A program made the translations under genes and the position numbers. The notes beneath the pieces are model-generated. The model was not told the DNA's origin. It saw only the letters and a list, made by a program, of their open reading frames with translations, and made no database searches. Shown here one piece after another: positions 3,863-15,064 of a DNA stretch of 25,281 nt (position 1 is its first letter; each line of letters starts with the position of its first letter). Source of the stretch: a virus; the IMG/VR virus record IMGVR_UViG_3300006622_000584, positions 1-25,281 of that record. One strand, given 5' to 3'.

Positions 3863-5194
3863 TTATTCAAAGAGAAATTTACTCGTATCAAATAAATATT
3901 GTTTATTATTTAAGTGGTTTTTATTATAATCTACTAAATTATTAACTGTAATTTTAAAACTACCTATTGTATAAGTGCCTTTATAATTATCTGGGTTAGA
4001 TTTTATTAAGTTATCAAATATAACATTTGAATTAGCTATAAAGTCATTATTTTCTTGACTACTCATTCCCTTAGATAGTGAATACATATCTGTTTCTATA
4101 ATTATGTCTTTATCTTTAGACCATTTTTCTCCAACAACTATTTTATCTTCAGCATCTTTACCCATAAATGTTGATCTTAATTTATCCCAATCTTGTTGAG
4201 TATATTTCCAACGTTTATTAGTATAATAATGACTATCAAAGTTAGTTAAATTAACTAAAGCATCTTTAACAGGTTCTTCATTTAACATTATATTATCAAA
4301 GTAAGGTTCTATTCCTGATAGTAATCCTATATTTGGAGATGAATTGATATCTACAAACAAATGAGTTTTATATTTTGGTTTATATTCATGTCCAAAATAA
4401 CCCCATTTTCTAATAAAACGTTTTAGTTCTTCTTGATCTGCTCTGCCCTGCCAACCATTAGTTATTTCTACTTGCTTATCATTATTTTTATACCATTCTT
4501 TTCCTCTAGAAGAAACACAAGTATAATGGTATACACTAGCATTCCAAGTTTCTAAAGCATTTAATTCACAGGCAGCTAAACGAATAATAAAATCAGAATC
4601 TTCTCTTGAACATCTAAATCGAGTATCAAATCCTCCTAACTTATCAAAATATGTTTTTTTATATAAACCAAAAGGAGCAAAATGACCATAAACTAATGGT
4701 CTATTTTCTTTAGTTAAATTTTTAGCAAATTCCATAAATTCATCATATTGGAATTCATCAGGTGTTAATCCAAAGCTTTTAGTAATTTTTTCAGGTGATT
4801 CTGGATGAATAGGAGGTTCTATTCTTGCCATAGTAATCACTCTATTATCGTCTTCAGCTAATGCTTCCAAGAAATATTTATCAAATTCAGGACTAACAAC
4901 CATATCAGATTGTAGATAACAAACAATATCATTTGAAGCATTTCCAAATAATATTGAAATATTCTTTTGATACCCAATTCTATACCCTGTTGTATTTTTA
5001 TGTATTTTAATATTAGGTTTATTTTTCCTATAATCTAACAATTTTTCATATGTGTTTTGATTATCGGAATCAATTAACACTAATACTTCATGTTTTTCGA
5101 ACTGGGTGTTAGCTACTAAACTATCTAATAAACCAATAACATAATCTTTTTCATTATTGGCTGTTGTTATACAAAAACTAATTGGTTGCATCAT
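3863..5194 (-). CDS. Family 2 glycosyltransferase with C-terminal extension
   Basis: A 443-aa protein with a GT-A domain: ISFCITTANNE at residues 5-15, LVLIDSD (38-43), a YLQSDMVVS segment holding the metal-binding acidic motif (Asp97), GGFDTRF (187-193) and SREDSDF (196-202) with the catalytic Glu/Asp. No transmembrane helix is present, so it works in the cytoplasm. The last ~190 residues do not belong to the GT-A core and are unrecognised. It transfers a nucleotide sugar to an unknown acceptor. It is the last gene of the glycan cassette and its start overlaps the upstream reductase gene by 17 nt, implying coupled translation. Confidence 0.85.
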   Translation of the reverse strand: MMQPISFCITTANNEKDYVIGLLDSLVANTQFEKHEVLVLIDSDNQNTYEKLLDYRKNKPNIKIHKNTTGYRIGYQKNISILFGNASNDIVCYLQSDMVVSPEFDKYFLEALAEDDNRVITMARIEPPIHPESPEKITKSFGLTPDEFQYDEFMEFAKNLTKENRPLVYGHFAPFGLYKKTYFDKLGGFDTRFRCSREDSDFIIRLAACELNALETWNASVYHYTCVSSRGKEWYKNNDKQVEITNGWQGRADQEELKRFIRKWGYFGHEYKPKYKTHLFVDINSSPNIGLLSGIEPYFDNIMLNEEPVKDALVNLTNFDSHYYTNKRWKYTQQDWDKLRSTFMGKDAEDKIVVGEKWSKDKDIIIETDMYSLSKGMSSQENNDFIANSNVIFDNLIKSNPDNYKGTYTIGSFKITVNNLVDYNKNHLNNKQYLFDTSKFLFE

Positions 5195-5963
5195 ATACTT
5201 TATTTATTCCTTGTTTTAGCCCTATTAAATCTAAATTATAATTTTTAAATTTACCAGTATAGGGTTTACCTAATTCTTTATTATTAATTTTTATTTCACA
5301 GTAATGATTATTTCTAGTATTAATATATTCAGCTATTTCTTTTAGAGTATAGCTTTCTTCATAACAACAATCTATTACTTTAATATCAGGGTTCAATATA
5401 ATATGTTTTACTATGGTAGCCAAATCATCCATATAAATAAAATCAAATAATTTATTTTGATGAATTACCATTGGTTCTTTATTTTTGTATTTATTTAAAC
5501 AAGTTTTAATAAATCTAGTATCCCATTCATTTTCATCAAATACACCAAATACTCTAATATTATTTAGTTTGGGATCATTTTTAATAACATCCCAAATGAT
5601 AGCTTTGCTTAACCCATAAGGATTAGAAGGATTATTTAATTCAGCCCCAGAACCAAAACTTATTAGTTGACCAAATCTATCTTTATTAGCTAATAAATTA
5701 TAAAACATTTTTAAATTGTTGGCTAAAACATCATTTTCATCTTCTTTTAATCTACTTCCCCCACAAATTGCTGTATGGATAATTACATCAAAATAACCAT
5801 ATTTAGATAAAAAATTAGTTGTTGCTTCTCTATTAGTTAGGTCAAAATCATCTCTACCTACTCCTACTATAAAATTGGGATAAATAAAATCAAAATGGGA
5901 TTTTAATTTAGTTAATAAACTACTCCCTACATAACCCTTTTTACCTGTAACTAATATTCTCAT
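5178..5963 (-). CDS. NAD-dependent sugar epimerase/reductase (short)
   Basis: A 261-aa extended short-chain dehydrogenase. GKKGYVG (residues 7-13) is the GxxGxxG nucleotide-binding loop, and SNPYGLSK gives the catalytic Tyr116/Lys120, with Ser in the preceding FGSGAE. FDLTNREATTNFL and the IIHTAICGG segment recall GDP-fucose synthase (Fcl) and RmlD reductases, but at 261 aa it is shorter than typical Fcl (~310-320 aa). In context it could reduce the 4-keto or C4-branch carbonyl of a GDP-sugar, or complete GDP-fucose synthesis after Gmd. It abuts the aldolase gene with no gap. Confidence 0.75.
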   Translation of the reverse strand: MRILVTGKKGYVGSSLLTKLKSHFDFIYPNFIVGVGRDDFDLTNREATTNFLSKYGYFDVIIHTAICGGSRLKEDENDVLANNLKMFYNLLANKDRFGQLISFGSGAELNNPSNPYGLSKAIIWDVIKNDPKLNNIRVFGVFDENEWDTRFIKTCLNKYKNKEPMVIHQNKLFDFIYMDDLATIVKHIILNPDIKVIDCCYEESYTLKEIAEYINTRNNHYCEIKINNKELGKPYTGKFKNYNLDLIGLKQGINKVYDATN

Positions 5964-6965
5964 TTATTTTTTGAGTTTTTGGGCTACTTCTAATATTAAA
6001 TCTTCTTGCCCTGCTACTAATTTTCTATTACCTAATTCAAATATAAGAGAAGAATATTCAATACCATTTAATTTAGAAGCTTTAATAATAGGTCTTTCAA
6101 AACCAGAAAATAATTTATTTAACCCTGTTAATACATTTACTGGGGTTGTTGTAGGTACATTAGGTATTAAATAATCCATTACTTTATCTGCTTCAATTAT
6201 AATTTGTTTAAAATCAATTCCCATATTAAAGTTAGATTTTTCTAATACTGGAAGAAGTACTTCTAGGGGTGCATTACCTGCTCCTGCTCCAAATCCTCTA
6301 ATACAAGCATCTATATACTTAGCTCCATTTTGAGCCGCTACCAAAGAATTAGATACAGCACAACCTAAATTATTATGAGCATGAAAACCAACATCAATAC
6401 TAAGACTTTCAGTTAGTGCTTTAATTCTTTCCTCAACGTCTGAGGGTAAGTAAGTACCTGTTGAATCCATTATAATAACTGCTTCAGCACCATATTGCTC
6501 CATAATTTTAGCATTTTCAACTAATGTTTTAGTATCTGTTAGTGCTGTCATCATTAGCACTCCTAAAGCAGTAACATCTTTATTCTGAAGATATTCTAAA
6601 TGTGATTTACTTAAAGTTGCTTCAGTACAATGGGTAGCAATTCTAACTACATTAACACCCATATCAATTGCTGGTTGGATATCTTTATCTACAGTAGCAA
6701 TACCTGGGATGACATGAACTCCTAATTTACTATTAGTTAATTGTTTTTTTGCTGTTTCAATTATTTCTTTATCAGTATGGGTTGATTTGCCAACTAATAA
6801 TGAAGAAGCACCTAATCCATTTCCATGTCCTACTTCAACAATAGGAATACCTGCTTTATCAGCTGCCTTACAATATTTTTTAATACTATCTAAACTAATA
6901 GTATGTTTTACGCTATGGTTTCCATCTCTAAGAGATGAATCTGTTATAATAATATTATTCATCAT
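5964..6965 (-). CDS. DmpG/MhpE-like 4-hydroxy-2-oxovalerate aldolase
   Basis: A 333-aa HMGL-like TIM-barrel aldolase. SLRDGNHSVKH (residues 11-21) carries R13, D14 and H21, matching the metal/substrate Arg-Asp and catalytic His of DmpG. GFHAHNNLG supplies metal ligands H195 and H197, and GAGAGNAPLEV (226-236) is the family signature. Characterised relatives split 4-hydroxy-2-oxopentanoate to pyruvate and acetaldehyde, or run in reverse, with a partner acetaldehyde dehydrogenase that takes acetaldehyde by channelling. That partner is encoded immediately upstream with an 11-nt overlap. In a glycan cassette the pair probably serves sugar synthesis rather than aromatic degradation, possibly making the 2-oxo-acid used by the neighbouring ThDP enzyme. 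This last step is inference. Confidence 0.88.
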   Translation of the reverse strand: MMNNIIITDSSLRDGNHSVKHTISLDSIKKYCKAADKAGIPIVEVGHGNGLGASSLLVGKSTHTDKEIIETAKKQLTNSKLGVHVIPGIATVDKDIQPAIDMGVNVVRIATHCTEATLSKSHLEYLQNKDVTALGVLMMTALTDTKTLVENAKIMEQYGAEAVIIMDSTGTYLPSDVEERIKALTESLSIDVGFHAHNNLGCAVSNSLVAAQNGAKYIDACIRGFGAGAGNAPLEVLLPVLEKSNFNMGIDFKQIIIEADKVMDYLIPNVPTTTPVNVLTGLNKLFSGFERPIIKASKLNGIEYSSLIFELGNRKLVAGQEDLILEVAQKLKK

Positions 6966-7809
6966 TTAAGTGTTTGGTTATTTCAATTGCGGCACAATTG
7001 ATTATATCTAAATTACCAGCATATTCAGGTAAATAATCACCTGATCCTTTTACTTTAATACTTAGTACTAAAATATCATCATTAATAACAGGAGGCATTA
7101 CTAATTCATAATATGGGATATATGTTTGTAATTTTTTTATTGCTTCATAAATGTCTTCTACTAAAGGAGAAAAATTAACATTACCTGCTTTTACAAACAT
7201 TGTAGTTTGCATATCTACTTGTGGTATAGCTGGATTTAGGTTTAGTATTACTTTACATTCCTTACAGTTTGTAAATTCCTTAATTGCCTTTTCTGTGGTA
7301 TTTATATAATTATCAATATTAATTCTAGTTGCCATTCCAGCACTATCAGAAGCAATTTGAGAAACTACTTCAATATAATCTAAATCTGAACAATGTTTAG
7401 ATATAACGTTTAATAAAGGAGTAGATGCTTGGCCTCCACAAGTGATCATATTAACATTGCCATTGTTTTGTATAATTTTTGGATTAATATTAGGTACACA
7501 TAAATCTCCTACTTTAGCAGGTGTTAAATCTATTACTTTTATTCCTTGTTCAGCAAATATTTTAGCATGTTCCTTAGCATCTTTAGCACTAGTACAGTCA
7601 TATACTACATCACAACAATTAGGATTATCAATAAAATATTGAATACCTTTATCTGTTACAGCAATATTTAATTCTTGAGCTAATTTAATGCCTTTAGATT
7701 CCATTCTTCTTCCTGCAAATATAACAGGGGTGACAAAATCTGTTTTTCTTAATTTTAATAATAGATCGGTTCCAATATTACCGGTTCCAATTATACCTGC
7801 TTTTATCAT
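6955..7809 (-). CDS. Acylating acetaldehyde dehydrogenase, DmpF/MhpF-like
   Basis: A 284-aa protein with an N-terminal Rossmann loop GIIGTGNIGTDL (residues 5-16), a DLTPAKVGDLCVP segment (94-106) and the catalytic-Cys motif NMITCGGQAST with C124. All are hallmarks of the CoA-dependent acetaldehyde dehydrogenases that pair with DmpG aldolases. The reaction interconverts acetaldehyde, CoA and NAD+ with acetyl-CoA and NADH. It is slightly shorter than the usual ~300-315 aa but no core motif is missing. It overlaps the ThDP gene by 4 nt and the aldolase gene by 11 nt, so the three are almost certainly coordinated. Confidence 0.88.
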   Translation of the reverse strand: MIKAGIIGTGNIGTDLLLKLRKTDFVTPVIFAGRRMESKGIKLAQELNIAVTDKGIQYFIDNPNCCDVVYDCTSAKDAKEHAKIFAEQGIKVIDLTPAKVGDLCVPNINPKIIQNNGNVNMITCGGQASTPLLNVISKHCSDLDYIEVVSQIASDSAGMATRINIDNYINTTEKAIKEFTNCKECKVILNLNPAIPQVDMQTTMFVKAGNVNFSPLVEDIYEAIKKLQTYIPYYELVMPPVINDDILVLSIKVKGSGDYLPEYAGNLDIINCAAIEITKHLNDE

Positions 7810-9596
7810 CGTTTTATTTGGTTTGATTTTTTACTTAACTCAACAATCATTTCTCCCTTTAATTCTTCTTTTGAAATTAAAGGAGACATTTCTTCAATAG
7901 GAGGAGCTAAAATACTCCCATCTTCATTAGGTACACCTTTTACTTTTGGTAAAAATCCTTGATCAGGATCCATAAATACTTCTAGTACAGCAGGACCTTC
8001 ATGATTTAAAAACTCAGATATAGATTCATTTGTGTATCTCCAGTCTTCTAAAGAAAAATATTCGTATCCAAAAGCGGGTAACAATTTTTCATAATTAGGC
8101 AAACCAATACCTGTATTTTTATCTACACTAACGTAGTTACCCTTAAATAACATTTTCTGTGTGTGTTTAATCATTAAATATCCATCATTATTGAATATAA
8201 TAACTTTAATATTTAAACCATTTTCTATAACTGTATGTAATTCCTGAAGGTTCATCATTATACCTCCATCGCAATTAAGACATAATACATCTTTATTAGG
8301 ACAAGCTGCTGCTGCCCCAACTGCTCCTGCTATACCATATCCCATTTCTCCTAAACCTAAAGAAGTAAACATTTTTTGGTTTGCCTTTAATCTAAGAGCT
8401 TGATGACCACTTAATAAAGCAGTTCCCATATCTGTAACTATAATATGGTCATCTTTAAGATGATTAGATAAATTATCCATAAACTGATATGAGTTGGTGT
8501 AATTACCTTCATGTTCATGGATAGTATCAATCCATGGGTAGTTTTGTCTTTTATTATTACAATATTCTAACCATTTATTATCTATAGGATTTATATTTTG
8601 AATATTACTTAGTAATTGATCTAAAATAATACTAACATTTTCTTTTATATGTAAATCAATATGTTCCTTAGGGGCTTGTAAATCTGATATGTCAACACAT
8701 ATAATTTTACCTTCTCTAACAAATTCATTCCAATCATACCCAGTTTGTGGTAGTGCTAATCTACTTCCTAAAACAATAAGTAAATCACAATTTTGGACTA
8801 TAAAATTAGCTCCTCTTTGACCATATAACCCAAATCTTCCAAAAAAGTTAGGATTATCATTTTCCATTAAATCAATCCCAGACCAAGTTAAGGTTGTAGG
8901 TAGTTTAGTTGTATTAATAAAAGTATTGAATTTGTCCTTTGAATCAGATAATCTAATACCATGTCCTCCTAAAACCAAAGGACGTTTGGATTCATTTAAA
9001 GCATTAATCAAAAATTTAGAGTAATCTATTTGATTAGTAACTACAGGTGATGGTATATTCCAAGGTTGTTTTTCTACCATTTTAGATTGGATGTTAAAAG
9101 GTATATCTAACCAAGTTGGACCTTTTCTATCTTCCATAGTAATATTAAAACATTTTTCTAATTCAGATTGGATATTATTTTCATCCATTAAACAATGAGA
9201 ATATTTAGTAACGTCTTCAACCATCTTGGATATATTAAATCCTTGAGTACCATACATTCTTAAATTTTTATGTTCTTCAATGTGATATGAAGATTCATTA
9301 CCTGAAATGATAAAACCTGGAATGGAATCTGCCCAATTACTTACTACTCCTGTTATAGCATTAGATGCACCCGCTCCTGCTGTTACAATAGCTGCTGATA
9401 TTTCCCCTGATGCTCTATAATGGGCTCCCATAGCCATAACAGCTGCTTGTTCATGATGAGTATTTATAACTTTAGTATAACCTAACTTATCGATTGAATC
9501 AAATATGTGAGAATTAGCAGAACCTATAATACCAAAAACAGTTTTAATATTTTGTTCTTTTAAAAATTCTGCTACTAAATCACTTACTTTTACCAT
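7806..9596 (-). CDS. ThDP-dependent acetolactate-synthase/YerE-like enzyme
   Basis: A 596-aa three-domain ThDP enzyme. The N-terminal PYR domain has HHEQAAVMAMG with catalytic Glu49 and TAGAGASNAITG (residues 72-83). A central FAD/DHAP-like domain follows, then the PP domain with CDGGIMMNLQEL (442-453; Cys replaces the first Gly of the usual GDG) and NN at 469-470. Relatives decarboxylate a 2-oxo acid and transfer the acyl anion to an acceptor: acetolactate synthase, or YerE, which adds a two-carbon branch to C4 of a 3,6-dideoxy-4-ketohexose. There is no branched-chain amino acid gene nearby, and a 3-dehydratase and Gmd are, so the sugar-branching role is favoured. Substrate is unproven. Confidence 0.85.
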   Translation of the reverse strand: MVKVSDLVAEFLKEQNIKTVFGIIGSANSHIFDSIDKLGYTKVINTHHEQAAVMAMGAHYRASGEISAAIVTAGAGASNAITGVVSNWADSIPGFIISGNESSYHIEEHKNLRMYGTQGFNISKMVEDVTKYSHCLMDENNIQSELEKCFNITMEDRKGPTWLDIPFNIQSKMVEKQPWNIPSPVVTNQIDYSKFLINALNESKRPLVLGGHGIRLSDSKDKFNTFINTTKLPTTLTWSGIDLMENDNPNFFGRFGLYGQRGANFIVQNCDLLIVLGSRLALPQTGYDWNEFVREGKIICVDISDLQAPKEHIDLHIKENVSIILDQLLSNIQNINPIDNKWLEYCNNKRQNYPWIDTIHEHEGNYTNSYQFMDNLSNHLKDDHIIVTDMGTALLSGHQALRLKANQKMFTSLGLGEMGYGIAGAVGAAAACPNKDVLCLNCDGGIMMNLQELHTVIENGLNIKVIIFNNDGYLMIKHTQKMLFKGNYVSVDKNTGIGLPNYEKLLPAFGYEYFSLEDWRYTNESISEFLNHEGPAVLEVFMDPDQGFLPKVKGVPNEDGSILAPPIEEMSPLISKEELKGEMIVELSKKSNQIKR

Positions 9597-10576
9597 ATAA
9601 AATTTTTCTTATAATACTTTACTATATTGGGTAATTCACTATCAAATACCATTTTAGGTTCCCATCCTAAATTTCTTAATTTATCATCATTTAAAGCATA
9701 TCTCACATCTTGACCTTGTCTAGAGTAAGATAAATCTAAAAAATGATTTTTATCTTCATTATAATAGGGGAATGTTGATCTTAATGATTCATCTTCACCA
9801 TGATATAATGTAATAATTTTATTAACAGTATCCAAATTAGCTTGTTCAAAACCACCACAAATATTATATATTTCATTTTTAACTCCAGATTCGATAATAG
9901 TAATTACAGCATTAGCTGTATCTTGAGCATGTAACCAATTTCTTATTGGTGTACCATTATTATGTAATGGAATTTTTTTCTCTAAACTTAAATATTTAAT
10001 AGATTTAGGAATTAATTTTTCTACATATTGTCCAATCCCATAATTATTTGTTGGTCTAATAATAATATAAGGTAAATCATATGTACGATTCCAAGCCGTA
10101 ATTAATTGATCAGCTGCTGCTTTAGTAGCTGAATATGGATTAGAAGGTTTAAGTATATCAGTTTCTATATGTTCTCCTTCAGTAATATCTCCATATACTT
10201 CATCTGTAGAAAAATGAAGTAGGGTAGGTTTTTTACCACTTTCTGCTCTATAATTTCTTATAAGTTCTAATAAGTTATGAACTCCGTTTACGTTAGAATG
10301 TAAAAAGTTTTCACTTTTAACGATAGAATTACCTACATGGGTTTCTGCTGCTGTATTAATTATATAATCACACTCGTATAAGAACTCTAAATCATTTATA
10401 TCCGAACGTTCGAAACAAAAATTAGGATGCTCTAGAAATTCATCATAGGCATCTGGAAAGTATGCGTAGGTCATTTTATCAACTCCCATTACTTGCCAAC
10501 CTCTTTTTAAACATTCTCGTGTTACATAGCTTCCTATAAAGCCAAAACAACCCGTTACATATACTACTTTTTTCAT
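9590..10576 (-). CDS. RmlB-like NDP-glucose 4,6-dehydratase
   Basis: A 328-aa extended SDR. GCFGFIG (residues 9-15) binds NAD; HFSTDEVYGD places T124, D125 and E126 as in RmlB, and Y148/K152 complete the active site (NPYSATK). RPTNNYG and the RNWLHAQD segment are also typical of dTDP-glucose 4,6-dehydratase. The expected reaction is dTDP-glucose to dTDP-4-keto-6-deoxyglucose. No nucleotidyltransferase (RmlA) is encoded here, so the activated sugar must come from the host or from genes outside the window. It overlaps the ThDP gene by 7 nt. Some homologues use UDP- or CDP-glucose, and this cannot be excluded. Confidence 0.85.
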   Translation of the reverse strand: MKKVVYVTGCFGFIGSYVTRECLKRGWQVMGVDKMTYAYFPDAYDEFLEHPNFCFERSDINDLEFLYECDYIINTAAETHVGNSIVKSENFLHSNVNGVHNLLELIRNYRAESGKKPTLLHFSTDEVYGDITEGEHIETDILKPSNPYSATKAAADQLITAWNRTYDLPYIIIRPTNNYGIGQYVEKLIPKSIKYLSLEKKIPLHNNGTPIRNWLHAQDTANAVITIIESGVKNEIYNICGGFEQANLDTVNKIITLYHGEDESLRSTFPYYNEDKNHFLDLSYSRQGQDVRYALNDDKLRNLGWEPKMVFDSELPNIVKYYKKNFIW

Positions 10577-10577
10577 A

Positions 10578-11477
10578 TTAATTATCTATATTTATCCAAT
10601 TAGAGGGATAGTAGTTACCATTAATCCAAGCTGATGGATGATTTGGTTGGACATAATTTGTTGGACACACTATCTTTTTATTTTGGTTTTTACTTAAAAA
10701 TGCACCCCACCAAGGGTATGAACTATTTGATGTTATGTGATGATCACATAAACTTAGTAAAGCTAAATCTTCTTTTTCTGAGTCAGTACATACTTTATCT
10801 CCACCTTTAGGATCAACAAAATATATATTATCTCCTTCTAAAATAGATTTTGAATATTCTATATCATTAGAAAAACATATAAAATTATACTCATTGTAGG
10901 GCATAAAATTTTCAACAATAGCTTTAGTATAATATTCTATACCTAAATTACAAAAAGAAAATTCAGGGAGCAAATAATCTCCTCTACGCATATGGATACT
11001 TACAACAGGATTATTATTTTTAAATTGTTTTTTTATATGATCAAACCTTTTTTCTGCTTCTAATTTTAATTCTTTTTTATAATCCCAACTTTCAATTTCT
11101 TCTCTATTAGTATTATACCAGTAAGTGTAAAGATCAAATCTACCAATTAAATTATAATTATATCCTTGTTCTAAATTAAATAAAGTTTCATCATATGTTG
11201 TTGTGTGAAAGTTTATAGGTTTATCAACAAAATCTTTAAAAAAGTCATTAGGTTTTATGACATAATTATCCAAATTAAGTAAATCAAATATTCTAAGAGA
11301 ATTTGTAAAAATTTCATTAGTATGAGGGTAAATTACTTCTTTCCCTTTAATCATATCTTCAGAAAAAGCAATTTGTAGGTTATTAGCTTTTGCTACTGCT
11401 ACTAAACCTGCATATATGGTGAGTTGTGAACACATCCCACCAGCATTACCCATATCTTTTATTGTGATATAATTCAT
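10578..11477 (-). CDS. GT11 alpha-1,2-fucosyltransferase-like
   Basis: A 299-aa GT-B-type protein with the GT11 motifs: NAGGMCSQL near the N-terminus (residues 11-19), HMRRGDY (162-168), FSNDIEYSK (202-210) and the C-terminal ITSNSSYPWWGAFLS block (248-262). The family transfers fucose from GDP-fucose to a galactose or similar hydroxyl, or related deoxysugars from GDP donors. Gmd, encoded directly upstream with a 1-nt gap, makes the GDP-fucose precursor; an Fcl-like reductase is the 261-aa SDR candidate. The actual donor may be another GDP-deoxysugar made by this cassette. Confidence 0.85.
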   Translation of the reverse strand: MNYITIKDMGNAGGMCSQLTIYAGLVAVAKANNLQIAFSEDMIKGKEVIYPHTNEIFTNSLRIFDLLNLDNYVIKPNDFFKDFVDKPINFHTTTYDETLFNLEQGYNYNLIGRFDLYTYWYNTNREEIESWDYKKELKLEAEKRFDHIKKQFKNNNPVVSIHMRRGDYLLPEFSFCNLGIEYYTKAIVENFMPYNEYNFICFSNDIEYSKSILEGDNIYFVDPKGGDKVCTDSEKEDLALLSLCDHHITSNSSYPWWGAFLSKNQNKKIVCPTNYVQPNHPSAWINGNYYPSNWINIDN

Positions 11478-11478
11478 G

Positions 11479-12450
11479 TTATTTATACACTTTCATCCAA
11501 TGTTCAATCATTTCATCCATCATACTCTCAAAAGTATATTCAGGTTTCCATCCTAATTCTCTAATTCTAGTTGAATCTCCTTTTAAATATTTTAATTCCT
11601 CAGGACGTAAAAACTTTTTATTTTGGATTACATAGTCTTCATAATTTAAATCTAATTGAGAAAATACATACTTACACATATCTCTTACAGAACGGGTTTC
11701 ACCTGTAGCTACTACCCAATCACCTGCTTCCGGTTGTTGTAAAATTAAGTGCATAGCACGAATATAATCTTTTGAATGCCCCCAATCTCTATAAGCATCT
11801 AAATTACCTAGTTCTAATTCATTTTGAAGACCTAATTTAATTCTAACAGCAGCTTTAACTACTTTATTTGTAACAAAATTTGACCCTCTTCTTGGTGATT
11901 CATGATTAAATAATATACCATTTGAAGCATGTAATTTATAAGCATTACGATAATTTCTTACAATATTATAACCAAATACTTTAGCACAACCATAAGGAGA
12001 TACAGGAGTCATTCTAGTTGATTCTCTCTGAAAACCATCTTCATCAACTGAACTTCCAAACATTTCTGAGGAACTAGCTTGGTAAAATTTAGCTTTAGGG
12101 CAATTATTACGAACAGCTTCTAATATATTTACTACACCAACTGAATTTGTTTGTACTGTAAATTGTGGAATTTCATAACTGATCCTTACATGAGATTGGG
12201 CAGCTATATTATATACTTCATCAGGTTGTATATCACGTAATAATCGTTCAATTCCTGAGGTATCGTTTAAATCACCGTAACTTACGTGTAAATTTGGATT
12301 ATTCCGTATGGGATCCAATCTGGATTGTTGGTGTTCTGGGGTTGAGTTTCGTCTAACAATACCATAAACTTTATAGTTTAAACTTAATAGGTATTCTGCT
12401 AAATAAGAACCATCTTGTCCTCCAATTCCTGTAATAAATGCTTTTTTCAT
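11479..12450 (-). CDS. gmd: GDP-mannose 4,6-dehydratase
   Basis: A 323-aa SDR that begins FITGIGGQDGSYLAEYLL, the Gmd form of the dinucleotide loop (GIGGQDG, residues 8-14). ASSSEMFG gives S128 and E129, and SPYGCAKVFG gives Y153/K157. The NHESPRRG and RDWGHSKDY segments are also characteristic. It converts GDP-D-mannose to GDP-4-keto-6-deoxy-D-mannose, the branch point for fucose, rhamnose, perosamine, colitose and related sugars. Length is a little under the bacterial norm (~345-370 aa) but all core motifs are present. It overlaps the short DegT-like gene by 4 nt. GDP-mannose itself must be supplied by the host. Confidence 0.93.
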   Translation of the reverse strand: MKKAFITGIGGQDGSYLAEYLLSLNYKVYGIVRRNSTPEHQQSRLDPIRNNPNLHVSYGDLNDTSGIERLLRDIQPDEVYNIAAQSHVRISYEIPQFTVQTNSVGVVNILEAVRNNCPKAKFYQASSSEMFGSSVDEDGFQRESTRMTPVSPYGCAKVFGYNIVRNYRNAYKLHASNGILFNHESPRRGSNFVTNKVVKAAVRIKLGLQNELELGNLDAYRDWGHSKDYIRAMHLILQQPEAGDWVVATGETRSVRDMCKYVFSQLDLNYEDYVIQNKKFLRPEELKYLKGDSTRIRELGWKPEYTFESMMDEMIEHWMKVYK

Positions 12451-13043
12451 AAATTGTCTTTAAATATATCCATTTGTGTTAAATCAGGCCAATCTGTTAT
12501 GACCCACTGTTTTGGTTTTGTTTTGATAGTATTATCTAATTTTTCTAGACCCTTTATTGCTGTTTCAGGAGTCATATAGTAATGATAACCTAATGTATTT
12601 ATATTTTGATCTCTCCAAGGCACATTAGGAATTCTACCATCATAAGTCATCTTTTTTAATTGTTCTGCTGCTTCTTTATTATCAGTTAATATAATACCTC
12701 CCCTACCAAGAGACAAATGTTTTTGAAATTGGAATGATATATTCATAAAGGTACCAGGAATATAACTATTTTCTTTCCATAATACAGCAGCATCAATTAC
12801 TGTATTTGTTAAATAGTAATAATCAACCCAATTTTCATCTTTCCAATGTAAATCTATCCTTAATTTATTAGCTAAAAAAGGTATGGATAAATAGGTTCTT
12901 TTAGGTACTGTTATGTGATTAACCCCTTCATACCTTAAACAAAGTTCAACTCCGTGGGTGCAACAATCAACAGCTACAGCATAAGGAGAACCAAAAAATT
13001 CTGCTAACTTATTTTCAAATTTAGTTACTACTTCGAATCCCAT
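12447..13043 (-). CDS. Half-length DegT/DnrJ-family PLP protein
   Basis: Only 198 aa against ~370-400 for normal sugar aminotransferases. It has the family's N-terminal part (KFENKLAEFFGSPYAVAV, then a CCTHGVEL loop in the PLP-phosphate position) and the PLP-lysine block SFQFQKHLSLGRGGI, so Lys108 is kept. Most of the central linker and the C-terminal domain are absent, and the conserved D-x-A block survives as IDAA (residues 83-86). No frameshift is evident: the frame starts and stops cleanly with 16-nt and 4-nt overlaps to its neighbours. It could be a minimal aminotransferase of nucleotide-4-ketosugars or a non-catalytic remnant. Neighbouring GNA1-like and cupin genes favour amino-sugar synthesis. 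Confidence 0.7.
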   Translation of the reverse strand: MGFEVVTKFENKLAEFFGSPYAVAVDCCTHGVELCLRYEGVNHITVPKRTYLSIPFLANKLRIDLHWKDENWVDYYYLTNTVIDAAVLWKENSYIPGTFMNISFQFQKHLSLGRGGIILTDNKEAAEQLKKMTYDGRIPNVPWRDQNINTLGYHYYMTPETAIKGLEKLDNTIKTKPKQWVITDWPDLTQMDIFKDNL

Positions 13044-13468
13044 AAACTATTTTTCATTATAACTTTATTTTCAAATAACTTAAATCCATTTTTACTATAA
13101 AACTTAGTTAAAGGTTCATCACAAAATAATGTAACTCTATAACATCCTTTTGTTTTAGCAATACTAACTAAGGCATTAATTAACTTAACACCAATATTTT
13201 TTCCTCTAACACTTTTATCTACAACAATATCTTCAATATGACCTGCACGCGCTCCTCTGATTTTATGTTCAATAACAATGGCTCCATAAGCTATAACTTT
13301 ACCATTATAAACCCCAACTATTGAATTAGATGAATTATTAGTAATAAATCTATCCCAACAATCATCTTTATCCCTGGATGAATAGTCTATTTCAGTTAAT
13401 TGTTGTAATAAAGAAAATACTTCATCTAAATCTTTTCTTTTAACCGGTCTGAAAATAATATTATTCAT
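13028..13468 (-). CDS. GNAT acetyltransferase, GNA1-like
   Basis: A 146-aa protein with a complete GNAT fold. GHIEDIVVDKSVRGKNIGVK holds motif A with the R-G-K-x-I-G acetyl-CoA loop, and GCYRVTLFCDE followed by FYSKNGFKL is motif B. The GHIEDIVV and GCY...CDE combination is strikingly like glucosamine-6-phosphate N-acetyltransferase (GNA1), a type best known from eukaryotes but also found in phages and some bacteria. It would use acetyl-CoA to N-acetylate an amino sugar. It overlaps the cupin gene by 8 nt and the short DegT-like gene by 16 nt, which fits an amino-sugar step after transamination. Exact substrate unknown. Confidence 0.82.
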   Translation of the reverse strand: MNNIIFRPVKRKDLDEVFSLLQQLTEIDYSSRDKDDCWDRFITNNSSNSIVGVYNGKVIAYGAIVIEHKIRGARAGHIEDIVVDKSVRGKNIGVKLINALVSIAKTKGCYRVTLFCDEPLTKFYSKNGFKLFENKVIMKNSLWDSK

Positions 13469-13877
13469 TTATAAAAGTTTTATCTAATGCCTGACCTTCA
13501 TATGGTCCTGTTTTATACTCATATACAAGAGTATTATCTTCTAGAATTTCATAATTATGTCCTCCTTCTAGTGTAAATGATGCATCACCTGGTTCTAATA
13601 TAGGTTCAACTAAAATAGTATCGTCTAAGTCATAAAATATACATTTTACTTTACCTTGGATTACAATCCAACTTTCTTGGGCAATAACGTCTCTAGTTCT
13701 GTTTTTAAAAATATGTTTATGAGGTCTGAATGTTTTACCTTTTTCCATATTAAGATGAGAGCATTGTATAAAATGTTCCTCAGGTATGATATCTTTTCTA
13801 CCTGGTTTTAAATCTTCTTTTCTTACTACTACATGAAGTAATTTAGTAGGGTCTACTTTTGAATAATATTCTATCAT
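13461..13877 (-). CDS. WbuC-like cupin protein
   Basis: A 138-aa single-domain cupin. FRPHKHIFKN with a later QESWIVIQGKVKCIFYDLD forms cupin motif 1 (His-x-His and Glu), and LEPGDASFTLEGGHNYEIL forms motif 2 with its His. The C-terminal TGPYEGQALDKTF tail resembles WbuC proteins found in O-antigen gene clusters, whose function is unsettled. The alternative is an FdtA/QdtA-type 3,4-ketoisomerase of similar size, which would act on the RmlB product before transamination; the expected R-G-x-H-A-H-K signature is not clear here. It overlaps the dehydratase gene by 4 nt. Confidence 0.72.
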   Translation of the reverse strand: MIEYYSKVDPTKLLHVVVRKEDLKPGRKDIIPEEHFIQCSHLNMEKGKTFRPHKHIFKNRTRDVIAQESWIVIQGKVKCIFYDLDDTILVEPILEPGDASFTLEGGHNYEILEDNTLVYEYKTGPYEGQALDKTFINE

Positions 13878-15064
13878 TGGGCAAAAAATTCTTTAATTTT
13901 ATCACAAACATAATCTACATCATCTAAGTCCATACCATGGTGAGCTCCTAATAAGAAACCATTTTTCATTACTATATCTGCATTCTTAAAATCTTTTAAG
14001 TATTGTCTATAAACAGGGTGTCTAGTAACATTACCAGCAAATGTAACGCGTGTTTGTATATTATTATCTTCTAGAAAATTAAGTAATTCTAATCTACGTT
14101 CAGTTTGTAATGGAATTGCTAACCAATTAGGTTCAATACTATCATTTGGTAGGATTATTTCTTTAACATTTTTTAGATTTTTTAGGTATCTTTTAATATT
14201 ATCTCTACGTTTATCTTTAAATGTTTGGAATCGTTCCAATTGTACTAAACCAAATGCCGCACTCATTTCACTACATTTCATATTATAACCTAATACACCA
14301 TATAAAAATTTATAATCATAAGGTAAACCATCAACATCATGAGCAAATCTTTCATCCATATTTTCACTATTGTCTCCTATACGGCCCCAATCTCTATATT
14401 GTAATGCTTTTTTAACATGTTTTTCATCATTAAACATTACCATACCACCCATTCCACCAGCTGTAATAACATGGGAAGCATAAAAACTTGTTGTTGAAAC
14501 ATCAGATTCTTTTGTATAAGTTACAGTATCAGCTGAATCTTCAATTAGATAAACATCTTCTCTTTTTATTTTCTTTAATTCTTTTTTTAGTTTTTTCCAA
14601 TCAGGTTTATTTCCTATTAAATTAGGAATCATAACAGCTGTAACCCCACTGTACCCTTTAACAGCATGTATTATATCTTCTACTGTAGGAACATAAGAAG
14701 TTAAATCTGAATCTATAAATACAGGATGGTAACCTAATTGAATAATAGGGGCTAAAGTAGTTGAAAATGTTAAAGCAGGAGTAACTATTTTACTACCTTT
14801 TGGTAAATCTAAAGCTGCTAGAGCTAATAAACAAGCTGATGAGCCTGAATTAACGAATATACCATATTTTTTTCCGAATTCTTTAGCTATTTTTTCTTCA
14901 AATTCAATAGAACGTGGTCCAAAACCTGCTAACCAACCATCTCTAAGACACTGTTCAACAGCTTGGATTTCATCCTCACCATAAGCTTCTAATTTATTGG
15001 GAGCGTACCATACTTTTTTTACATTACTTGTTTTTTTATTGTTTTTAACATTTTTAGTTTTCAT
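13874..15064 (-). CDS. RfbH/ColD-type PLP-dependent sugar 3-dehydratase
   Basis: A 396-aa fold-type I PLP protein of the DegT family. VNSGSSACLLALAAL (residues 71-85) binds the PLP phosphate, LIEDSADT gives Asp176, and the PLP block reads SFYASHVITAGGMGG. Thus His198 stands where aminotransferases have the Schiff-base Lys. This Lys-to-His change marks the 3-dehydratases RfbH (E1) and ColD, which use PMP to remove the C3 hydroxyl of an NDP-4-keto-6-deoxyhexose. Downstream RDWGR and LGYNMKCSEMSAAFGLVQL also align with RfbH. The RfbH [2Fe-2S] cysteines that follow RDWGR are absent, so a ColD-like, cluster-free mechanism is more likely. With Gmd nearby the product would be GDP-4-keto-3,6-dideoxymannose. 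Confidence 0.85.
   Translation of the reverse strand: MKTKNVKNNKKTSNVKKVWYAPNKLEAYGEDEIQAVEQCLRDGWLAGFGPRSIEFEEKIAKEFGKKYGIFVNSGSSACLLALAALDLPKGSKIVTPALTFSTTLAPIIQLGYHPVFIDSDLTSYVPTVEDIIHAVKGYSGVTAVMIPNLIGNKPDWKKLKKELKKIKREDVYLIEDSADTVTYTKESDVSTTSFYASHVITAGGMGGMVMFNDEKHVKKALQYRDWGRIGDNSENMDERFAHDVDGLPYDYKFLYGVLGYNMKCSEMSAAFGLVQLERFQTFKDKRRDNIKRYLKNLKNVKEIILPNDSIEPNWLAIPLQTERRLELLNFLEDNNIQTRVTFAGNVTRHPVYRQYLKDFKNADIVMKNGFLLGAHHGMDLDDVDYVCDKIKEFFAQ

Follow-up and report, generated by a model that had tools for sequence, protein, structure and literature searches.

A virus-borne, cluster-free relative of the sugar 3-dehydratase E1 and its candidate role in the synthesis of a C4-branched 3,6-dideoxy sugar

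The virus record IMGVR_UViG_3300006622_000584 was analysed over its positions 1 to 25,281 (25,281 nucleotides, here called the window), and our guess as to its source is a tailed phage of Bacteroidota. An open reading frame (ORF) on the minus strand, at 13874-15064, encodes a protein of 396 amino acids (aa) related to the 3-dehydratases E1/RfbH and ColD, the former being the cytidine diphosphate (CDP)-4-keto-6-deoxy-D-glucose 3-dehydrase (3bcx) and the latter the guanosine diphosphate (GDP)-4-keto-6-deoxy-D-mannose 3-dehydratase (2gms). This protein is probably a 3-dehydratase dependent on pyridoxamine 5'-phosphate (PMP) and free of iron, feeding a JanthE-like branching enzyme dependent on thiamine diphosphate (ThDP) which would use a C4 donor, leading to an erwiniose-type product. 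The families to which the sequences belong, the His/Cys pattern of the enzyme, its lineage and the linkage of its genes are the observations that carry this reading.

Active site of the 396-aa protein

The ORF and the residues that characterise it are the following.
13874..15064, minus strand: predicted cluster-free, His-type nucleoside diphosphate (NDP)-4-keto-6-deoxyhexose 3-dehydratase, 396 aa, ATG start (Pfam DegT, E1 match, tree)
14471..14473, minus strand: codon of His198, at the position of the Schiff-base Lys (alignment; 81/81 relatives)
14531..14542, minus strand: EDSA, residues 175-178, with Ala178 in place of the E1 ligand C193 (alignment)
14345..14395, minus strand: residues 224-240, running from RDWGR to RF and devoid of the cysteines that E1 has there (alignment)

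The protein scores 237.8 bits with the Pfam family DegT_DnrJ_EryC1 and, as the original prediction had stated, resembles RfbH/E1. A PDB sequence search returned E1 of Yersinia (3bcx, 9.8e-56; its H220K mutant 3bb8, 1.5e-54) and ColD (3.5e-32), with 192.7 bits for E1, the best solved relative, against 115.2 for ColD; the entry 9wvy (399 aa), labelled 'putative NDP-4-keto-6-deoxyglucose-3-dehydratase', scores below ColD. The blocks RDWGR, LGYNxK and AGN are common to E1 and the 396-aa protein, but the latter reaches 250.1 bits with the NCBIfam RfbH model, whose cut-off is 423.

In a MAFFT alignment with E1 (3bcx), His198 falls on H220, in the site of the Schiff-base Lys, as had been predicted, and the codons at 14471-14542 read EDSADTVTYTKESDVSTTSFYASH, with His198 as the last residue. 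We take the ligands of the [2Fe-2S] cluster of E1 to be C193, C251, C253 and C261 in the numbering of Agnihotri et al. 2004; of these, C193 aligns with A178 and C261 with M236, while C251 and C253 both fall on gaps, the codons at 14345-14395 reading RDWGRIGDNSENMDERF. A review of dehydratases states that four cysteines hold the E1 cluster. The original prediction had pointed to the missing cysteines after RDWGR, and to these has to be added the one before the strand that contacts pyridoxal 5'-phosphate (PLP), at the C193 site. Both traits extend to the 81 close relatives of the protein (80 IMG/VR loci, the best of 150 that were confirmed, plus L081, a contig of a metagenome-assembled genome, MAG): His198 is conserved in 81/81, as are Ser73-Gly74-Ser75 of the PLP loop and Glu175-Asp176, and a cysteine at any of the four ligand positions occurs in 0/81. 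Taking into account that these relatives are 71-89% identical to the 396-aa protein and that the pattern is unbroken in all of them, it is not due to chance.

The alignment also reveals a hairpin from the PLP Asp strand to the His strand that falls 7 residues short of its E1 counterpart, as well as an extra Gly after SHVITA in the 396-aa protein. The ColD fragment aligned is that of the H188N mutant (3b8x), whose residue 188 stands one column ahead of His198, with His189 on His198; the match with ColD H188 therefore rests on the spacing to a GG found 7 residues after the active-site position in both ColD and E1, and not on the column. An AlphaFold model of the protein (47 sequences) has a mean predicted local distance difference test score (pLDDT) of 84.2, with values below 50 at residues 1-13, 228-236 and 254-259, the last two segments lying in the stretch that holds three of the cysteines in E1, or just behind it. 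Foldseek searches with this model gave E1 as the top match (5.6e-29) and ColD as the ninth.

As regards an electron-transfer partner, a profile search for the reductase domain PF00175 (control 10/14) found no match in the window record, itself a fragment, in line with the earlier statement that no E3 reductase is seen. Among the related virus records, 50 of 80 were searched; 48 gave no match and 2 contain the domain, these records being mostly fragments, and a protein of the host could serve. The PF00175 ORFs of loci L217 and L218 are 244 and 240 aa long.

By analogy with ColD, the 396-aa enzyme most likely works without reductase electrons, and the mechanism given in the original prediction is the best one. 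His198 would take a proton off the PMP-sugar Schiff base, and the C3 hydroxyl would depart. As electrons cannot come from a cluster here, hydrolysis would free the product, as in ColD, and the regeneration of PMP from glutamate would be the natural counterpart of what ColD does.

A lineage beside the E1-type enzymes

To place the protein among cellular enzymes, 90 cellular loci from 371, 379 and 398 genomes (the phyla of genomes G001, G004 and G002, respectively; at most 30 loci per phylum) were all aligned with it. In nine of them (L114 and L143-L150; 38-43% identity) the histidine is kept and the three cysteines after RDWGR are absent, with a cysteine still at the C193 site. The histidine together with at least three cysteines in the stretch after RDWGR is found in 65 of the 80 remaining loci (L113, which lies on the L081 contig, was left uncounted).

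Two trees were built. The first has 67 rows, with 16 out of 82 from the phage clade, 46 from the 90 cellular loci and 5 others. The second, from which the trait columns had been removed, has 49, with 8 from the phage clade, 38 from the cellular loci and 3 others; the long rows L138, L142, L156 and L166-L168 are omitted. In both, the phage rows and the nine cellular relatives form one group (support 100/98 and 100/99) beside the E1-type rows, with ColD elsewhere, and a single group of phage rows, the nine relatives and ColD was rejected (approximately unbiased test, p-AU 0.000429). The phage branch is long, at 1.13-1.15 changes per column, and the trees are unrooted, for which reason the direction of the change, gain or loss of the cluster, is not readable from them.

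Since it groups with the nine relatives on the E1 side, the cysteines are absent and its joining with ColD was rejected, the 396-aa protein is, judged from its sequence, a third kind of His-type 3-dehydratase, related to E1 and cluster-free like ColD. The earlier idea that the protein joins RfbH-like sequence with ColD-like freedom from a cluster is hence borne out, but not as a one-off phage hybrid, the lineage being shared with nine prokaryote proteins. According to the review of dehydratases, the well-characterised 3-dehydratases are E1 and SpnQ, with iron-sulphur clusters, and the iron-free ColD. A lineage that does without iron on the E1 side would represent a second iron-free solution and would allow one to ask how a single fold gains or drops a cluster.

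Three further cellular loci (L126, L127 and L133, from the phylum of G001) are E1-like, lack the cysteine loop (RDWGRIG...) and are placed among the E1 rows. A second independent cluster loss in these loci may have occurred but is not upheld, as a single undivided E1 clade was not rejected (p-AU 0.208) and neither was joining them with the phage clade (p-AU 0.0735). In addition, a Pacearchaeota MAG contig (L216, G001:C7, 8435-10533) bears a 3-dehydratase that shares about 72% identity with the phage enzyme and is adjoined by an RmlB-like gene; its surroundings look cellular by eye, which leaves transfer or mis-binning as explanations.

The cassette and the proposed pathway

On the minus strand, the 3-dehydratase gene is followed by ten others, adjacent genes overlapping or lying within one base of each other in an operon-like manner.
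13461..13877, minus strand: WbuC-like cupin (TIGR04366, 38.4 bits, cut-off 42)
13028..13468, minus strand: GNAT acetyltransferase (PF00583)
12447..13043, minus strand: half-size DegT protein, 198 aa (PF01041, 56.8 bits)
11479..12450, minus strand: GDP-mannose 4,6-dehydratase-like protein, GMD (TIGR01472, 374.5 bits, cut-off 415)
10578..11477, minus strand: GT11 glycosyltransferase (PF01531)
9590..10576, minus strand: RmlB-like NDP-hexose 4,6-dehydratase, with TDE and YxxxK (NCBIfam TIGR01181, 295 bits, cut-off 365.1)
7806..9596, minus strand: ThDP-dependent YerE-like carboligase of JanthE type, CDG motif (match to JanthE, 8rph)
6955..7809, minus strand: DmpF, acylating acetaldehyde dehydrogenase, with TCGGQA (NCBIfam TIGR03215, 310.4 bits, cut-off 282.25)
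5964..6965, minus strand: DmpG, 4-hydroxy-2-oxovalerate aldolase with communication domain (NCBIfam TIGR03217, 341.3 bits, cut-off 286; PF07836)
5178..5963, minus strand: short-chain dehydrogenase/reductase (SDR), 261 aa, family SDR9 (linkage to ThDP loci)

The window thus encodes together a 4,6-dehydratase, the 3-dehydratase, a ThDP lyase, a source of a 4-hydroxy-2-oxo acid and a candidate reductase. Among solved structures, the ThDP protein matches JanthE (8rph) with 543.9 bits, the next one scoring 245.4, and the 4,6-dehydratase scores 295 bits as the thymidine diphosphate (dTDP) type against 62.5 as the CDP type.

From these genes we infer the reactions, together with the nucleotide involved, the sugar produced and the purpose it serves. 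The 4-keto-3,6-dideoxy product of the 3-dehydratase would be the acceptor for the JanthE-like enzyme, while DmpF and DmpG, in the direction presumed here, would convert acetyl-CoA to acetaldehyde and condense this with pyruvate to 4-hydroxy-2-oxopentanoate. Having decarboxylated this acid, the ThDP enzyme would transfer the C4 unit so formed to the sugar at its C4 position. Later, the new branch ketone is likely reduced by the SDR, a role suggested by its linkage, to give an erwiniose-type C4-branched 3,6-dideoxy sugar destined for a surface glycan. Erwiniose is 3,6,8-trideoxy-4-C-(1-hydroxyethyl)-gulo-octose, which fits a 3,6-dideoxyhexose carrying a 1,3-dihydroxybutyl branch.

Gene linkage was scored in 81 loci with hidden Markov models made from the neighbour families; in 53 of the loci (52 viral plus L081) the downstream flank of the 3-dehydratase is 6 kb or longer. 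A ThDP gene is present in 35/53 and absent from 18/53; 17 are of decarboxylase type (DC), 12 of split transketolase type (TK) and 6 of split E1_dh type (KADH), and two types never occur together (0/53). The SDR9 family accompanies ThDP genes in 29/35 loci and is found in 0/18 without them, while an RmlD-like reductase is found in 11/18 loci without ThDP and in 0/35 with it. Aldolase genes occur only with DC (10/17, against 0/18 loci with TK or KADH and 0/18 without ThDP), as DmpF plus DmpG in 5 loci and as an HpcH/HpaI aldolase in 5. Pfam searches with one representative per type gave Transketolase_N plus Transket_pyr, E1_dh plus Transket_pyr, HpcH_HpaI and RmlD_sub_bind. With near-copies merged (42 loci), the contrasts are kept for aldolase (10/16 DC vs 0/13 TK/KADH, p 4e-4), SDR9 (24/29 ThDP vs 0/13, p 3e-7) and RmlD-like (0/29 ThDP vs 7/13, p 6e-5), although, the loci being related, these p-values overstate independence.

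A background sample was anchored on a glycosyltransferase, 33 of 80 loci having at least 5 kb downstream of it. ThDP and RmlD-like genes, taken together, are enriched beside the 3-dehydratase (6/8 loci with it vs 1/25 without, the latter having one ThDP and no RmlD-like gene); enrichment of ThDP alone is not shown in this small sample (1/8 vs 1/25). It has to be noted that the sample overlaps the first set, with L219, L223, L244 and L269 on the contigs of L002, L076, L007 and L005, and that L269 was scored as lacking a 3-dehydratase because its own lies past the flank.

In the phage family, the 3-deoxy product would be used in one of two ways, through ThDP branching plus SDR or through RmlD-like reduction. 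With about even chances, the family can be seen as a modular factory built on one iron-free 3-dehydratase, where three ThDP superfamilies or a plain reductase are exchanged, the window making an erwiniose-like, ten-carbon sugar. If so, related phages would decorate a surface with rare sugars that differ from phage to phage, and the DC-type carboligase would often bring its own donor-making aldolase.

Some observations on individual genes may be added. The split phage ThDP enzymes are very short (204+156 aa in L005, 12135-13213; 208+178 aa in L004, 14532-15699). An 'SDG' motif in the ThDP enzymes linked to HpaI was considered and rejected, GDG being present in all four readable sequences of the five. 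In L008 (13377-15812), HpcH/HpaI aldolase, SDR and 3-dehydroquinate synthase-like genes lie near a DC-type ThDP gene, and L208 likewise has SDR, 3-dehydroquinate synthase-like and ThDP genes; these 3-dehydroquinate synthase-like sets are perhaps another donor route. The half-size DegT protein contains a block with a Lys and lacks a second half; homologues occur in 9/80 loci, 7 of them at 50% identity or more, and a sugar cassette of Flavobacterium phage immuto includes a 'transaminase' gene of 645 bases.

Several facts weigh against the proposed pathway. The families were picked for their recurrence near the 3-dehydratase, which makes their presence partly circular, though not their mutual pattern. 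Exclusivity of the ThDP types is not absolute, because L039, a locus with a shorter flank, holds both DC and KADH genes, and 7/17 DC loci show no aldolase, so that pyruvate may be the donor there. The eight glycosyltransferase-anchored loci with a 3-dehydratase comprise one with ThDP, five with RmlD-like and two with neither. As regards the nucleotide, the RmlB-like protein scores below its family cut-off, and a profile search found no PF00483 nucleotidyltransferase in the window. Moreover, the RmlB-like gene is directly behind the 3-dehydratase in 28 of the 43 loci that have one, but in the window, as in its closest relative L002, it lies about 3.3 kb away, and GMD is nearer. As for the enzyme, the loop 228-236 is among the parts of the model with pLDDT below 50, and VIA-align Z scores are not discriminating (E1 41.3, ColD 40.6, aminotransferases up to 41.7).

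Among other explanations, it is unlikely, though worth weighing, that the same 3-deoxy sugar receives a C2 unit from pyruvate, as in yersiniose, with DmpFG supplying pyruvate or acetyl-CoA elsewhere. YerE uses pyruvate, according to PMC12247030, JanthE accepts it besides 4-hydroxy-2-oxovalerate (PMC12188165), and the CDG-type loci L055, L056, L061 and L068 have no aldolase; on the other hand, DmpF lies beside CDG-type ThDP genes only (7/7 loci with DmpF), and DmpF plus DmpG accompany YerE-like genes in two bacterial loci as well (L101 and L103). Less probable still is that the 3-dehydratase acts on GDP-4-keto-6-deoxymannose supplied by the window GMD, giving a colitose-like sugar, and that the ThDP-DmpFG genes serve another one. 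GMD is close by together with a GT11 gene, ColD is likewise cluster-free according to the review of dehydratases, and the 11 related loci with RmlD-like and no ThDP are what a plain 3,6-dideoxyhexose would predict. However, the 396-aa enzyme falls outside the ColD clade, and GDP is not favoured as the nucleotide because, among the 35 ThDP loci, an RmlB-like gene is present in 28, GMD in 11 and GMD without RmlB-like in 0; the window GMD probably serves a second sugar. Finally, an aminotransferase-like or inactive descendant without dehydration, using another Lys or merely binding sugar, agrees with the DegT aminotransferase fold and with the PHROGs label (aminotransferase) but is very improbable in view of the conserved His, PLP-loop and Glu-Asp residues described above and of the six lysines kept in at least 80/82 phage-clade rows, of which K252, K263 and K389 are Lys in E1 too (S, R and V in ColD), K65 and K89 correspond to V/S and P/K in E1/ColD, and K17 is without counterpart in the two reference fragments.

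Relation to phage genes and known branched-sugar systems

Comparison with phages by megablast yielded nothing beyond a match of 42 bases within the GMD gene, shared with a single phage that has two records, and tblastn gave 64 phage records, all below 60% identity, the best being 34.1% among the matches listed (40 of 64). A neighbouring glycosyltransferase is 54% identical to one of Flavobacterium phage immuto, a clamp loader belongs to phrog_168, and the G+C content of the window is 28.6%. PMC10653327 and PMC11295528 list rfbH by annotation among viral genes, the former also ddhC, and lipopolysaccharide genes are known in pelagimyophages (PMC7029224). Among the titles and beginnings of abstracts listed in a literature search, none deals with an E1 relative devoid of the cluster or with a phage pathway to a branched sugar. 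If true, a phage-made C4-branched sugar would widen viral alteration of cell-surface chemistry; the cassette is also a source of new candidate ketone-accepting ThDP enzymes, and the exchange of carboligases is a natural experiment on donor choice.

Cellular counterparts exist as well. Relatives of the ThDP protein (E up to 1e-100) were found in 13/398 genomes of the phylum of G002, and 13 regions were examined. The bacterial locus L101 has ThDP, DmpG and DmpF genes together with an E1-type gene whose product shares 70% identity with E1 and contains CCDAL and RDCFCDPGKDDTC. L103 has the same three genes, and an ORF there covers the C-terminal portion of an enzyme of E1 type and contains RDCYCKPGCDNTC; the same donor logic is hence present in cells with the iron-sulphur-type enzyme. 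Of the nine cluster-free relatives from cells, five have a ThDP gene nearby (L206-L210) and four do not (L203, L204, L205 and L211).

Of the solved structures, that of JanthE, a YerE-like lyase like ErwE and YerE, is by far the nearest to the window ThDP protein, which shares the CDG motif of JanthE, an uncommon one according to PMC12188165; there, JanthE takes 4-hydroxy-2-oxovalerate with benzaldehyde and also accepts pyruvate. It differs in that its gene is phage-borne and linked to a cluster-free 3-dehydratase. In the erwiniose pathway of Pectobacterium, ErwE couples a hydroxy-functionalised 2-oxo acid, preferably 4-hydroxy-2-oxobutanoate, -pentanoate or -hexanoate, to CDP-4-keto-3,6-dideoxy-glucose (PMC12247030), the same logic of a 4-hydroxy-2-oxo acid joined to a 4-keto-3,6-dideoxy sugar; L101 and L103 combine it with an E1-type gene with cysteines, and the phage with an RmlB-like and a cluster-free enzyme. 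The same source distinguishes decarboxylase, transketolase and alphaKADH2 as the ThDP superfamilies known to use ketones, and describes split-gene transketolases (miharamycin, amipurimycin) and alphaKADH2 branching enzymes. In related phages, split pairs of TK-like or E1_dh-like genes take the place that the carboligase has in the window, although the phage subunits are very short and virus-borne.

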